A stretch of DNA of 18,922 nt from Lachnospiraceae bacterium UBA3850 (GTDB taxonomy: Bacteria; Bacillota; Clostridia; Lachnospirales; Lachnospiraceae), in contig DGHK01000021.1 of the NCBI GenBank assembly GCA_002392655.1, positions 1 through 18,922 on the forward strand, in the 5' to 3' direction. The notes beneath the pieces are model-generated. The model saw only the letters and a list, made by a program, of their open reading frames with translations. It ran no database searches and had not been told where the DNA came from. The translations under genes were made by a program, and so were the position numbers. Positions 2,688 to 16,656 of this stretch are shown here, piece after piece. Positions within the stretch are counted from its first letter, which is position 1, and the number at the start of each line of letters is the position of its first letter.

Positions 2688-2750
2688 GGTACCTGGCACC
2701 TTTTCGCCAAAAGGTACCGTGTACCAAAACGGCAAAAGGTACCGTGTACC
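2688..2750 (+). repeat. Palindrome array B (three units, 63 bp) upstream of XRE-RAYT
   Basis: The order is GGTACCTGGCACC, spacer TTTTCGCCAAAA, GGTACCGTGTACC, spacer AAAACGGCAAAA, GGTACCGTGTACC. It ends four bases before the AAAGGAGG ribosome binding site of the XRE gene and forms the left flank of the XRE-RAYT unit. Confidence 0.95.
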
Positions 2751-2771
2751 TAGGAAAGGAGGTTGATAACT

Positions 2772-3161
2772 ATGACAATAAGTGAACGTATATTTTTAAA
2801 GCTGGAAGAACTAAATATGTCGCAGAAAGTATTTTCGGAAAAGACAGGTATTTCGCAGAGCACAATAAGTGAGTGGAAGTCTAAGAAGACGAATCCGTCA
2901 GCGGATAAGATCATGATCATCTGCAAGGTTCTGAGTGTCAGTCCTGAGTGGCTGCTTTCCGGGATTGAGAAGGAAGGGAAGCGAGGAAATAAGCCTAGTT
3001 TTATTGTTGTCGATAAAAAAACAGAGACTGGTGAAATGCTGACTACATTCAATGGACTGTCAAGGGATAAGAGAGAGCGTCTTCTTGGTTATATGTACGC
3101 GTTAATGGAAGCTCAGAAAAAGAGTGAAAAGAGTGAAAAGCATAAGGATGACAAAAAGTAG
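2772..3161 (+). CDS. XRE-family helix-turn-helix transcriptional regulator
   Basis: The 129-residue cytosolic protein has an N-terminal HTH_3/XRE domain (residues about 2-62): the LNMSQKVFSEKTGISQSTISEWKS recognition region followed by PSADKIMIICKVLSVSPEWLLSG. Beyond this are about 65 charged residues ending in a Lys/Glu-rich tail, possibly an oligomerisation segment. I choose the ATG at 2772, which has an AAAGGAGG site nine bases upstream, over the TTG at 2763 that overlaps the site. The gene lies 60 bp upstream of the RAYT transposase on the same strand, and the two are bounded by arrays B and C, so it may regulate the transposase. That role is inference; XRE proteins of this size are common in mobile-element and phage contexts. 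Confidence 0.9.
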   Translation: MTISERIFLKLEELNMSQKVFSEKTGISQSTISEWKSKKTNPSADKIMIICKVLSVSPEWLLSGIEKEGKRGNKPSFIVVDKKTETGEMLTTFNGLSRDKRERLLGYMYALMEAQKKSEKSEKHKDDKK

Positions 3162-3221
3162 GGGAGGGCATTTTTATACAATTAAAATTCGCATATATGA
3201 AAATATTCAGAAAGGAGATAC

Positions 3222-3845
3222 ATGTCTAGGAGGAGAAGGGTTTGGTATCCCGGAGCCTTTTACCACGTTATGAGTAGAGGGAACGGGAGAAATGTTATTT
3301 TTAATGAAAGAGGTGATTTTCATCGTTTTCTTGATATTATGAAGGAGGAAAAGGAAAAGCATCCATTTACGATGCATGCTATGTGTTTGATGTCAAATCA
3401 TTTTCATTTTTTGATTGAGTGTCATGATACAGAATTATCTGTGATTATGCGGAAGATTCTTGTAACATATGCAAAGGATTATAATTTCAGATATGAGCAT
3501 ACGGGACATGTGTTTGAGAACAGATATAAGGCATATCTGATAGATGATGATAGTTATTTTCTTGAGGTGAGCAGGTATATACATTTGAATCCAGTTAATG
3601 CATATATGGTTGCCAAGCCTCTCGATTATGACTACAGCAGCTATCATTGCTATTGTGATAATATTCCGGTCAGCGCTGATCAAAGGGCACGGAAGTTAAT
3701 TTCTGATATGGTTACAACTGATCGAGTGCTTGGATATTTCAGGAATAAGTCAAAAGAAAAATATCGCTACTTTGTAGAAGATATGCCTTTACATGAAAAA
3801 TACGAACAACAGATACAGAAGGATATAAAGGAAGATGATATGTGA
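3222..3845 (+). CDS. REP-associated tyrosine transposase (RAYT, Y1_Tnp / HUH family)
   Basis: The 207-residue protein matches the RAYT branch of IS200-like Y1 transposases. It has an N-terminal basic PGAFYHVMSRGNGR block and the MSNHFHFLIE segment with the HUH pair H60-F61-H62. Candidate nucleophile tyrosines are Y83 and Y87 in TYAKDYNFRY, followed by GHVFENRYKA (residues 95-104) and the typical RYIHLNPVNAYMV block (118-130) with a YSSY motif. RAYTs cleave and join single-stranded DNA at REP-type palindromes and are thought to mobilise repeats in trans rather than themselves. The start is supported by AAAGGAG 5-11 bases upstream. All recognised motifs are present and the gene looks intact. 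Array B lies upstream of its XRE partner and array C begins two bases after its stop, which makes the GGTACC palindromes its likely substrate. Confidence 0.93.
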   Translation: MSRRRRVWYPGAFYHVMSRGNGRNVIFNERGDFHRFLDIMKEEKEKHPFTMHAMCLMSNHFHFLIECHDTELSVIMRKILVTYAKDYNFRYEHTGHVFENRYKAYLIDDDSYFLEVSRYIHLNPVNAYMVAKPLDYDYSSYHCYCDNIPVSADQRARKLISDMVTTDRVLGYFRNKSKEKYRYFVEDMPLHEKYEQQIQKDIKEDDM

Positions 3846-3847
3846 TA

Positions 3848-3910
3848 GGTACCGTGTACCAAAACGCAAAATGGTGCCAGGTACCTTTTTGGGAAAAGGT
3901 ACCGTGTACC
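3848..3910 (+). repeat. Palindrome array C (three units, 63 bp) with a flipped middle unit
   Basis: The order is GGTACCGTGTACC, spacer AAAACGCAAAAT, GGTGCCAGGTACC, spacer TTTTTGGGAAAA, GGTACCGTGTACC. The middle unit is the exact reverse complement of the GGTACCTGGCACC unit that leads arrays A, B, F, G and H. The 13/12 register is kept exactly. It is the copy closest to the RAYT stop codon. Confidence 0.95.
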
Positions 3911-3969: not shown

Positions 3970-4007
3970 GGTACCGTGTACCAAAACGTTAAAAGGTACC
4001 GTGTACC
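3970..4007 (+). repeat. Palindrome array D (two units, 38 bp)
   Basis: This is the shortest array: GGTACCGTGTACC, spacer AAAACGTTAAAA, GGTACCGTGTACC. It lacks the GGTACCTGGCACC leading unit and ends one base before the AAGGTGG ribosome binding site of the gene at 4017. Confidence 0.93.
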
Positions 4008-4016
4008 TAAGGTGGG

Positions 4017-4451
4017 ATGATGAATACTAAATTAAAAGCCTTTATTTTCGGAGCGTTGAGTGCGTTAGCAGTATGGGCAGTTCTAACGGTTGCTGACTCA
4101 ATTGATGAATATGTTATTAATACTGGAACAATGCTGGGGGCGATTGTGTATTTTACAATGCCCATAGCTATGGTTGTTATTTATATTAAGCATTGTATTA
4201 TATGTGATCCGCCTGGTAAGCAACTGATTCTTTGGTTTGCAGGATATTACATTTTATATATTCCTATATGGATGATTATATATAATAGCGTAAATCATCG
4301 CGATTTCTTTATTACTCAGAAAACTAGGGGCTCTTTTTTAGATTTTAATGGAATAGAGTATATGATGTACGGGATCAGTACACTCATCATGTTTACTTTG
4401 TTCTGCTTAATATTCCACGTAATTAAAAGGTACCGTGTACCAAAACGCTAA
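4017..4451 (+). CDS. Small four-helix integral membrane protein, hypothetical
   Basis: The 144-residue product has four predicted membrane segments: about 8-25 (AFIFGALSALAVWAVLTV), 40-60 (LGAIVYFTMPIAMVVIYI), 70-90 (LILWFAGYYILYIPIWMII) and 113-132 (MYGISTLIMFTLFCLIFHV). No family was recognised. There are two adjacent start codons; the second (4020) is better spaced from AAGGTGG at 4009-4015. Its last residues (KRYRVPKR) and its TAA stop are encoded by repeat array E, so the native C-terminus was probably altered when the array arrived. A promoter and array D precede it. Confidence 0.7.
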   Translation: MMNTKLKAFIFGALSALAVWAVLTVADSIDEYVINTGTMLGAIVYFTMPIAMVVIYIKHCIICDPPGKQLILWFAGYYILYIPIWMIIYNSVNHRDFFITQKTRGSFLDFNGIEYMMYGISTLIMFTLFCLIFHVIKRYRVPKR

Positions 4452-4491
4452 AAGGTACCGTGTACCAAAACGGCAAAAGGTACCGTGTACC
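4429..4491 (+). repeat. Palindrome array E (three units, 63 bp) overlapping a gene's 3' end
   Basis: Three GGTACCGTGTACC units are separated by AAAACGCTAAAA and AAAACGGCAAAA. There is no TGGCACC variant unit. The first spacer supplies the TAA stop (4449-4451) of the membrane protein gene, making this the only array that clearly invades a reading frame. Confidence 0.95.
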
Positions 4492-5690: not shown

Positions 5691-5828
5691 GGTACCTGGC
5701 ACCTTTTCTCAAAAAGGTACCGTGTACCAAAACGGCAAAAGGTACCGTGTACCAAAACGGCAAAAGGTACCGTGTACCAAAACGGCAAAAGGTACCGTGT
5801 ACCAAAACGGCAAAAGGTACCGTGTACC
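5691..5828 (+). repeat. Palindrome array F (six units, 138 bp), the largest array
   Basis: GGTACCTGGCACC leads, with spacer TTTTCTCAAAAA, followed by five GGTACCGTGTACC units separated by four identical AAAACGGCAAAA spacers. The perfect identity of the last four 25-bp periods points to recent tandem amplification. It fills most of the gap between the VanY-type gene and the next coding sequence, ending one base before the AAGAAAGGA ribosome binding site. Confidence 0.97.
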
Positions 5829-8439: not shown

Positions 8440-8502
8440 GGTACCTGGCACCTTTTTGCAAAAAGGTACCGTGTACCAAAACGGCAAAAGGTACCGTGTA
8501 CC
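8440..8502 (+). repeat. Palindrome array G (three units, 63 bp)
   Basis: The order is GGTACCTGGCACC, spacer TTTTTGCAAAAA, GGTACCGTGTACC, spacer AAAACGGCAAAA, GGTACCGTGTACC. It sits between a clear promoter and the AAAGGAG ribosome binding site of the aldolase-like gene. Confidence 0.95.
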
Positions 8503-10091: not shown

Positions 10092-10179
10092 GGTACCTGG
10101 CACCTTTTCACAAAAAGGTACCGTGTACCAAAATGGCAAAAGGTACCGTGTACCAAAACGGCAAAAGGTACCGTGTACC
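10092..10179 (+). repeat. Palindrome array H (four units, 88 bp)
   Basis: GGTACCTGGCACC leads with spacer TTTTCACAAAAA, then three GGTACCGTGTACC units with spacers AAAATGGCAAAA and AAAACGGCAAAA. It begins one base after the aldolase stop codon and ends ten bases before the TAXI gene's ribosome binding site. No array is found downstream of this point. Confidence 0.96.
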
Positions 10180-10200: not shown

Positions 10201-11199
10201 ATGGGAAAAAATACTTCATTTAGGGTAATTAGAATTGTTAGTATCCTTCTTTTGATTGCGGCTGTTGTTCTGACGATGGCTTTGCTTGGAAAAAAGGATA
10301 AGAACAGCATTACGATTGGAACCGGCGGCACGAAGGGTATGTACTATAAGTACACGCAGGTGCTTGCGGATATCGAGAAGGGTAATCTGAATATAAGGAT
10401 TAAGGAGACAGAGGGCTCGCAGGCGAATCTGAGGCTCATCCGCCAGAAATATCTGGATGTGGCGATCGTTCAGAATGATACGCTTTATGATGCTGCCAAT
10501 GGATTTGATGAGTATATAGATAACAGTCTAGGCGACGAGCGAAGCTTCAGTGCGGTTTGTACGCTTTATACAGAGTCTGTAAATGTAATTGTCAGGAAGG
10601 ATTCCGGAATAAGGAACATATCCGACCTGAAGGGCAAGACTGTTTCCGTCGGAAAAGAGGAATCCGGAGTCAAGCATAATGCGAAAGAGGTTCTGTCAGT
10701 TTACGGTATGACTTTGGAGGACATCAAGCCTGAGTATCTGAGCTACGAGGAATCGTCAGATGCATTGGTGGCTGGAAACATAGATGCTTTTTTCTGTAAC
10801 TGCGGAAACCCAGCGGAGGTGCTTACTGATCTTGCGAATAAAGCTGATGTGGAATTTTTGTCCATCTCAGACGAAGATGTAAAAAGGCTTAAAACCATAA
10901 ATCCGGCATATGTAAATGTAACTATACCCGCTGGTACCTATAAGGGACAAGACAGCGATGTAAAAACTGTAGGTATATATGCAGTACTTGTTGCCCAGAA
11001 TGATCTGGATGAAGACACTGTTTACGAGCTGACAAAGGATATATATGAAAAATCAGATGAGATAAATCAGGCGCTTGGAACCGCCGGTGAGCTTAAGCCG
11101 AGCGAACAGCCTGACAGAATGGTGATCCCTTTCCATAAGGGTGCAGCCAGATATTACCGCGAATTGAACGTGTCGGTAGATGAAGATAAGGCAGATTAG
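10201..11199 (+). CDS. TAXI-family (TRAP-type) solute-binding protein
   Basis: The 332-residue protein has an N-terminal hydrophobic segment (about residues 8-30) acting as an uncleaved anchor or signal; no lipobox is visible. The mature domain begins with ITIGTGGTKGMYYKYT, the hallmark start of TAXI (TRAP-associated extracytoplasmic immunogenic) receptors. It continues with ETEGSQANLRLIRQKYLDVAIVQNDTLYDAANG and LKGKTVSVGKEESGVKHNAKEVLSVYGM, as in the NMT1/TAXI fold. The start at 10201 has GGAG eight bases upstream. It would capture a small ligand outside the membrane. TAXI receptors normally work with DctQM-type subunits, but here the next gene, 11 bp away, is a GltS-type symporter. From memory some TAXI proteins bind glutamate, which would fit. 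Partner and ligand are inferred. Confidence 0.92.
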   Translation: MGKNTSFRVIRIVSILLLIAAVVLTMALLGKKDKNSITIGTGGTKGMYYKYTQVLADIEKGNLNIRIKETEGSQANLRLIRQKYLDVAIVQNDTLYDAANGFDEYIDNSLGDERSFSAVCTLYTESVNVIVRKDSGIRNISDLKGKTVSVGKEESGVKHNAKEVLSVYGMTLEDIKPEYLSYEESSDALVAGNIDAFFCNCGNPAEVLTDLANKADVEFLSISDEDVKRLKTINPAYVNVTIPAGTYKGQDSDVKTVGIYAVLVAQNDLDEDTVYELTKDIYEKSDEINQALGTAGELKPSEQPDRMVIPFHKGAARYYRELNVSVDEDKAD

Positions 11200-12814: not shown

Positions 12815-12861
12815 ATACATCTCACACAGTGATATTATAAATTGTGTGAGGTGTATTTTTT
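12815..12861 (+). terminator. Rho-independent terminator of the TAXI-gltS operon, containing the next gene's RBS
   Basis: ATACATCTCACACA (12815-12828) pairs with TGTGTGAGGTGTAT (12843-12856) as a 14-bp stem with one wobble, followed by six T residues that run directly into the ATG at 12862. The 3' arm contains GAGGTG, the only Shine-Dalgarno candidate for the GGDEF gene. Confidence 0.75.
12830..12838 (+). promoter_or_regulatory. Extended -10 promoter inside the terminator loop
   Basis: TGATATTAT matches an extended -10 element (TGn plus TATTAT, 12833-12838). No good -35 is seen at 17 bp; TTGTTA lies 22 bp away. Initiation near 12845 would give a short leader with the GAGGTG site free of the stem. 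Confidence 0.4.
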
Positions 12862-14742: not shown

Positions 14743-14745
14743 GTT

Positions 14746-14801
14746 AAAAAAGAACGGGGACGATTTTGTGAACTGACACAGAACCGTCCTCGTTCTTTTT
14801 T
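14746..14801 (+). terminator. Strong terminator after the GGDEF gene
   Basis: AAAAAAGAACGGGGACG (14746-14762) pairs with CGTCCTCGTTCTTTTTT (14785-14801), allowing one bulge. The loop has an inner TGTG/CACA pairing. The symmetric A and T tracts would also end transcription from the minus-strand gene. The GGGGACG... palindrome resembles a repeat type I recall from Clostridia, so it may have a REP-like origin. Confidence 0.8.
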
Positions 14802-14863
14802 ATTTCTTCATCTAAGCTTTCGCAACATCTGATTCGTAGCAAATATCAAAGCTTTCGCAGTCT

Positions 14864-16341: not shown

Positions 16342-16656
16342 ATGAAAGAGATAAGTGAGAAGTCAGTAAGACTGAATATGAATGATCTCGATGGAGTAGC
16401 AGGCGGTAACTACAATGAGACTACTGAGATAATCAATGCTATTGATAATAACCCGAATCTTTCGAGTATATGGTACAAGGCACTTGATAACGTTCATGGT
16501 ATAGAGGACGAGGACGTTGATGTTATAGCAGCGCAAAATGTTCTTGCCACCCTTGGAATAAAGGCCAATATGGATTTCAGAACCGCAAAGAACAACAACT
16601 ACGGCGGTATGAGCCATGCTGAAGTTCTGAAGAGAATAAAGGGATATAAGAAATAG
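16342..16656 (+). CDS. Double-glycine-leader peptide, possible secreted bacteriocin-like or signalling peptide
   Basis: The 104-residue product begins with a leader matching the GG class cleaved by C39 peptidase ABC exporters: LNMNDLDGVAGG ending at G22. Hydrophobic residues occupy the canonical -12 (L11), -7 (L16) and -4 (V19) positions and an acidic residue sits at -8. The mature part would be about 82 residues, polar, rich in Asn and Asp, free of cysteine, with NNNYGGMSHAEVLKRIKGYKK at the C-terminus. That is longer and more polar than typical class II bacteriocins, so it could be a signal, adhesin or effector peptide. The start has AAAGGAGA 11 bases upstream. No C39 exporter or immunity protein is recognised in the window. 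A terminator follows directly. Leader class is seen; function is inferred. Confidence 0.75.
   Translation: MKEISEKSVRLNMNDLDGVAGGNYNETTEIINAIDNNPNLSSIWYKALDNVHGIEDEDVDVIAAQNVLATLGIKANMDFRTAKNNNYGGMSHAEVLKRIKGYKK

Follow-up and report, generated by a model that had tools for sequence, protein, structure and literature searches.

The best-known systems that resemble the one considered here are the REPtrons of E. coli, Stenotrophomonas and Pseudomonas, in which a single-copy gene for a Y1 HUH enzyme (TnpAREP, or RAYT) is bracketed by cognate REP palindromes of 20–50 nt that recur through the genome. RAYT-like genes have also been described, under the name TIRYTs, that are flanked by non-GTAG repeats (TIRs) bearing the motif GGGGWSAS, some of which form families, dimers and clusters (PMC3733652; the words Firmicutes and Clostridi are absent from its main text). 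TnpAY1 subclass 2.1, which corresponds to group 1 of Bertels, is characterized by the motifs NH[YF]H, FQ or W[EQ], and Y[IV]HLNP and by a C-terminal extension, and the portions of PMC6006769 used here report no REP-like sequences near its genes. Finally, elements of the IS200/IS605 family transpose strand-specifically on single strands, according to the sections of PMC8266576 drawn upon, which also call TnpAREP domesticated and housekeeping-like and place the experimental work on RAYTs in groups 2 and 3. These three papers and PMC2817692, each in part, are the literature with which the present system was compared.

The window, by which I mean the whole stretch of DNA that was analysed, is 18,922 nt long and makes up the entire contig C27 of genome G000, from a gut bacterium of the family Lachnospiraceae (assembly of 2.69 Mb in 65 contigs, 97% complete, 5.4% contamination). 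It contains an XRE–RAYT pair: an XRE reading frame from the ATG at 2772 to 3161, a gap of 60 bp, and a RAYT gene at 3222–3845 with its TGA stop at 3843–3845. Around the pair lie arrays of two imperfect palindromes of 13 nt, unit A (GGTACCTGGCACC) and unit B (GGTACCGTGTACC), which with spacers of 12 nt recur at a period of 25. The original prediction had put one 63-bp array four bases 5' of the ribosome binding site of XRE and another array two bases past the stop codon of RAYT, a spacing that is read directly from the sequence: four bases separate the array at 2688–2750 from AAAGGAGG (2755–2762), part of that binding site, and the array at 3848–3910 begins two bases past the stop. The features are as follows.

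1790–1852, + strand: array A+ B+ B+, 63 bp, from the unit catalogue
2608–2623, no strand assigned: candidate XRE operator ATTCGCATATATGAAT, 5' of xre, from shared words and from the Gibbs motif of XRE–RAYT gaps, found again here at 16.1 bits
2688–2750, + strand: array A+ B+ B+, 63 bp, lying 3' of the candidate operator of xre and 5' of its ribosome binding site
2772–3161, + strand: xre, HTH_3 repressor-like protein, DicA-like, under the DicA family cut-off
3187–3202, no strand assigned: second candidate XRE operator ATTCGCATATATGAAA, inside the xre–rayt gap, from shared words and the Gibbs motif
3222–3845, + strand: RAYT/TnpAREP-like Y1 HUH transposase, 207 aa, with H60, H62 and Y119
3848–3910, + strand: array B+ A- B+, 63 bp, 3' of the RAYT stop
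3970–4007, + strand: array B+ B+
4429–4491, + strand: array B+ B+ B+
5691–5828, + strand: array of A+ and five B+, 138 bp, just 5' of the Shine-Dalgarno sequence of a choline-binding-repeat gene
8440–8502, + strand: array A+ B+ B+, just 5' of the Shine-Dalgarno sequence of an HMGL-like gene
10092–10179, + strand: array A+ B+ B+ B+, just 5' of the Shine-Dalgarno sequence of the gene at 10201

Three other features of the window may be recorded: the 3' part of an IS605-type TnpB gene (1–548, + strand; PF07282, PF01385), truncated by the start of the contig; an inverted repeat at 14745–14802 with 26-nt arms and the core GGGGACG, which may be a terminator or the relic of another palindrome family; and a 104-aa peptide (16342–16656, + strand) with a leader of the double-glycine type (LNMNDLDGVAGG), which I take to be bacteriocin-like.

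The RAYT protein matches the Pfam family Y1_Tnp (PF01797, E 7.7e-13) and scores 78.7 bits, just under the curated cut-off of 80, against the NCBIfam model for REP-associated tyrosine transposases (NF047646). Its reading frame is open, and the residues H60 and H62, the HUH pair, and Y119, within the motif YIHLNP, are invariant in all 32 of the RAYT sequences aligned. A search of the PDB with the single sequence (phmmer) gave no match, and one with a profile of the 32 sequences gave a single match at E ≤ 0.01, to E. coli TnpAREP (4er8). The same structure, that of TnpAREP with a REP hairpin, was the top structural match in the PDB to an AlphaFold model of the protein (pLDDT 85.6; E 1.7e-7, TM 0.58/0.72). 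Y119 aligns with Tyr115 of 4er8, presumably the catalytic residue of that enzyme, and Y83 and Y87 do not. Because of this alignment Y119 is the likely nucleophile, and so, of the residues proposed earlier for mutation, H60/H62 are kept and Y83/Y87 give way to Y119. By eye, and against Table 1 of PMC6006769, the protein has the NHFH and YIHLNP motifs and the C-terminal extension of subclass 2.1 (group 1), with FE (in GHVFENRY) in place of FQ or W[EQ] as its middle motif; it differs from the subclass in having palindromes beside its gene.

Exact copies of unit B number 53 in the genome, on 12 contigs, and those of unit A number 28. The reversed patterns gave none, in the case of A even with one mismatch allowed, and 0.08 copies would be expected of a random 13-mer; the palindromes are therefore not due to chance. 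The repeats had been said to cluster around the RAYT gene, and this describes the 21 copies of B that lie on the RAYT contig but not the 32 on 11 other contigs. Within the stretches of the genome that were fetched, 30 arrays or single units were catalogued, commonly built on the plan A+ B+ (B+)n, and the B units within one array are nearly identical. In single-stranded DNA, the hairpin predicted for an A–B pair is long and imperfect (−8.1 kcal/mol, z −3.1), and that for B alone has a stem of 5 bp with a loop of 3 nt; for A alone no fold was predicted.

Thirteen of the 30 arrays or units stand just 5' of a Shine-Dalgarno sequence and start codon, a placement shared by 428 of 2299 intergenic sites picked at random (p 0.0016), and the end of B is followed by TA in 11 of 21 cases, where 9.8% would be expected (p 1e-6). 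The orientation of the arrays agrees with the sign of the GC skew in 22 of the 24 that are oriented (six arrays without clear orientation were excluded) and in 10 of 11 contigs, contigs C27 and C30 dominating these tests. Orientation also agrees with the local coding majority in 20 of the 24, but the orientation of genes is itself linked to GC skew, so the two tests are not independent. At 11 congener loci of the gene at 10201 the A and B units are absent, the base-exact empty site not being readable, and a genus-wide search for orthologues that might show one found proteins at most 57% identical.

The system is like a REPtron in having one RAYT gene in the genome, in recurrent palindromes that bracket it on both sides (the 5' array precedes the xre of the pair), in the fold that the RAYT model shares with 4er8 and in the similarity of the palindromes of its nearest relatives, described below. 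It differs in its Lachnospiraceae host, in its 13-nt palindromes arranged in 25-bp modules, shorter than REPs, and in counting an XRE gene and candidate operators as part of the unit. No regular GT[AG]G foot was found by eye in the unit flanks and spacers of the catalogued arrays, and for this reason I do not place it among the canonical REP systems, although it would work like a REPtron. Nor do the units of the window carry the GGGGWSAS of TIRs, starting instead with GGTACC or GGTGCC. Repeats of the GGGGWSAS type do fit at other RAYT loci, where the motif agrees with the palindrome half GGGGTCAG/GGGGACAG in several relatives, but an XRE partner, an operator and 13+12 modules do not appear in the parts of PMC3733652 that were compared. 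With IS200/IS605 elements the system would share Y1 HUH catalysis, folded single-strand ends and a strand bias; it differs from them in that the genome has one RAYT rather than several near-identical transposase copies, no tnpB adjoins it, and the repeats far outnumber the gene. The original prediction had considered both the XRE partner and the modular substrate unfamiliar. Titles and the beginnings of abstracts, searched in one library, yielded no description of an XRE-linked RAYT or of such repeats in Lachnospiraceae or Butyrivibrio. Non-GTAG repeats beside RAYT-like genes were already in print (PMC3733652, in the parts compared). What is added to a known kind of system is the repressor-like partner, the candidate operator and the modular palindrome.

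Within the genus, some RAYT match is present in 21 of 61 genomes, and five congeners (G022, G016, G056, G035 and G024) have relatives at 47–54% identity. Genome G000, with its 53 copies of GGTACCGTGTACC, stands against 60 others that have five or fewer each. One of these, G037, has five copies and no RAYT match in the genus search, and another, G041, has four and a distant RAYT that falls outside the clade of the window.

It is conceivable that these are the remains of a fossil system, in which a RAYT once spread the palindromes and is now either inactive or kept for some host function. The single RAYT copy would suit such a history, as would the domesticated, housekeeping-like character ascribed to TnpAREP in the sections of PMC8266576 drawn upon. 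I consider it rather unlikely, since the open frame with its three invariant residues, the near identity of the B units and their high number in this one genome of the genus all suggest recent activity.

To see the system in its relatives, I compared 81 RAYT loci, consisting of the window and the best 80 of 528 confirmed in a contig scan. A palindrome was counted when it fit the 13-nt pattern [GA]GnnnC[AT]GnnnC[CT], paired correctly in five or more of its six positions and lay no more than 300 bp from the RAYT gene or the XRE–RAYT pair. Other 13-mers of a single design (GGnnnCAGnnnCC) adjoin the related RAYTs, and with the window counted in, palindromes are present at 34 of these 81 loci, as compared to 2, 1 and 2 with permuted centres (any side), and the criterion found none at the other 47. 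Palindromes occur on both sides of the RAYT at 12 of the 81 (permuted: 0, 0 and 1). Of 753 other genes from these loci, taken as controls, 17 have them on both sides (p 4e-6 against RAYT) and 108 on either side, because palindromes are also scattered through these loci. Two tests were set aside as too loose, the centre-specific criterion taking the place of both: the longest words common to the two flanks, and generic palindrome density (2.7 per kb in the flanks, 1.9 in the rest of the locus, 1.0 in shuffled flanks).

The sequences of the palindromes vary between genomes (GGGGTCAGACCCC, GGTGACAGGCACC, GGTGCCAGGCACT and others), and those of nearest RAYT neighbours are more alike than others (a mean of 1.59 mismatches vs 2.99; 0 of 5000 permutations, n=34). 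The Mantel correlation between palindrome and RAYT distances was nil (r 0.05, with 438 of 2000 permutations as high), so a global coevolution of the two is rejected, the nearest-neighbour comparison being the one positive result. Applied to 24 of the 57 regions upstream of XRE-less RAYTs, a Gibbs search arrived unprompted at the palindrome GG...CA(T)G...CC (162 vs 131–141 when shuffled).

The modular layout itself is found again at L045, an XRE-linked locus whose RAYT is a near relative of that of the window in the tree. Its elements have the form 13-12-13-12-13 with sequences of their own; among ten that were inspected, 8 have both ends, and one copy folded gives a perfect hairpin. They surround the XRE–RAYT pair from 2307 to 18947, and the copy at 12817 abuts AAGGAGGAG and an ATG. 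Locus L067 has the same geometry, in 25-bp steps and again with its own sequences, and at other loci the palindromes follow one another at about 23 to 40 bp. The 25-bp module is common to some RAYT relatives, not general. At L201 (G139), pairs of GGGGTCAGACCCC 23–24 bp apart lie on both sides of the RAYT, and the genome has 112 pattern matches. The same layout filled with different palindromes suggests that the RAYT moves or copies them. As far as comparison of sequences can establish it, RAYTs of this kind are shown to associate with families of 13-nt imperfect palindromes.

A survey of the family, covering 396 Lachnospiraceae genomes at least 80% complete, made use of the A1 RAYT profile and the palindrome pattern GGKGNCAGNCMCC. 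A RAYT match was present in 79 genomes. At least 20 matches to GGKGNCAGNCMCC were present in 16, of which 15 are among the 79 with a RAYT match and one (G338) among the 317 without (Fisher p 1e-10), the cut of 20 having been chosen after the table was seen; at a cut of at least 15, the proportion with a RAYT match is 17 of 23 (p 1e-8). Among the 15 palindrome-rich genomes, G200 has only a fragment of a RAYT, with a stop; the RAYT match of G275 likewise contains a stop. The 23 matches in G000 itself are not A or B units, 21 of them being GGGGACAGGCACC, and with that genome excluded 14 of 15 palindrome-rich genomes have a RAYT match (p 6e-10). Of the 79 genomes with a RAYT match, 64 have fewer than 20 matches to the pattern, so either the pattern covers the palindromes only partly or many RAYTs are without abundant repeats.

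The GGGGACAGGCACC sequences, 21 exact copies on contigs C40, C41, C49 and C60 (L228–L249), some of them paired about 29–36 bp apart, are a separate matter. The exact B unit is absent from these contigs, and no second RAYT that might serve the family was found in genome G000. They may be an orphan family or may sit on contigs of another organism in the bin, given its estimated contamination. Abundant arrays in the absence of a RAYT of this clade would, according to the original prediction, count against it, and the instances encountered are mild: the few B copies of G037 and G041, and the GGGGACAGGCACC family. The claim that the arrays are cognate to the RAYT has mostly held up, through the palindromes that flank its relatives, their similarity between nearest neighbours and the RAYT matches in 15 of the 16 palindrome-rich genomes.

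The same results bear on the supposition that the arrays are tandem repeats produced by replication slippage, or terminators or leader hairpins, that lie near the RAYT by chance. The near-identical B units of each array, multiplied in 25-bp steps, are what slippage would produce, and the excess of arrays just before Shine-Dalgarno sequences might point to a role in leaders. Slippage fails to account for the 30 separate sites, for the rarity of the unit in the 60 congeners and for the association with RAYTs in other genomes, and I regard this account as improbable, though slippage may well lengthen arrays after insertion.

The pairing of RAYT with XRE, pointed out in the original prediction, proves to be conserved. 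Among the 81 loci (the window and the best 80 of 528) there are 35 matches of at least 100 bits to the XRE profile, and 24 of these, at 24 loci, lie directly 5' of the RAYT on the same strand. The XRE and RAYT trees are correlated (r 0.46, 0 of 2000 permutations, n=24). Palindromes are near the RAYT at 11 of these 24 loci and at 23 of the 57 without XRE, again within the window and the best 80 of 528. In part of the clade RAYT has XRE as a conserved partner, and the palindromes do not track XRE.

A Gibbs search of the 24 XRE–RAYT gaps produced a palindrome of a different sort, the candidate operator motif ATTCGTATATACGAAT (164 vs 116–123 when shuffled). The score of 162 obtained from the XRE-less regions might be mistaken for a failure of the control, but the motif behind it is GG...CA(T)G...CC and not the AT-rich operator. 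At p ≤ 0.02 the operator motif recurs before xre, a region not used in its construction, at 12 of the 24 loci and upstream of 6 of the 57 XRE-less RAYTs (p 0.0002); the gap site of the window, 3187–3202, belongs to the building set. The two sites in the operon have the top motif scores in 91 kb of G000, and the two arrays tested score at most 3.0. Of four XRE loci outside the building set, L115 and L134 have the motif in both places, and it was found at neither L120 nor L121; L112 and L185 repeat L047 and L034. The RAYT frame of L120 and L121 (G017 and G009) is about 236 aa long, and GGGGACAGTCCCC occurs there some 930 bp 5' of the RAYT start and again 9 bp past the RAYT end. Judging from the motif, XRE probably acts on its own 16-bp AT-rich palindromes (2608–2623 and 3187–3202), not on the arrays.

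XRE dimers bind palindromes of about the size of the units, 13 bp, and an array stands directly before xre, but the notion that the GGTACC units are XRE operators, spread by other means with the RAYT as a bystander, is highly improbable, and the array unit is rejected as the operator, in view of the separate AT-rich motif before both genes, which the two arrays tested do not match, and of the XRE-less RAYTs flanked by palindromes about as often as the XRE-linked ones (23/57 and 11/24 among the best 80 of 528 and the window).

The explanation I favor, and think probable, is that the locus represents a REPtron-like system belonging to a clade of RAYTs from Lachnospiraceae, in which the RAYT spreads the palindromes and XRE represses both genes. 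The RAYT, with H60/H62 and Y119 as nucleophile, would bind the palindromes when these are folded in single-stranded DNA, the lagging-strand template being the likeliest place, and would cut and rejoin them, so that they spread and the arrays grow in steps of 25 nt (13+12). Acting at the 16-bp AT-rich palindromes that precede the two genes, XRE would repress both xre and rayt, and mobilisation would then normally be off. The arrays would be the substrate of a nuclease and not the operator of a repressor, and insertions, often just 5' of a Shine-Dalgarno sequence, would become hairpins in 5' leaders.

A broader and decidedly more tentative proposal is that RAYTs of group 1 (subclass 2.1) do have substrates, 13-nt palindromes centred on CAG, and that in Lachnospiraceae they have come to be part of a prophage-like operon under repressor control, whose modules, inserting into the lagging-strand template just 5' of Shine-Dalgarno sequences, make it a mobile supplier of 5'-leader hairpins. 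The function and regulation of a RAYT clade other than the groups 2 and 3 treated experimentally in the sections of PMC8266576 drawn upon are made open to test by a candidate substrate, a probable nucleophile and a candidate operator. If the dedicated repressor is real, then the mobilisation of REP sequences would be something that these bacteria can switch on and off, rather than a constitutive housekeeping activity.
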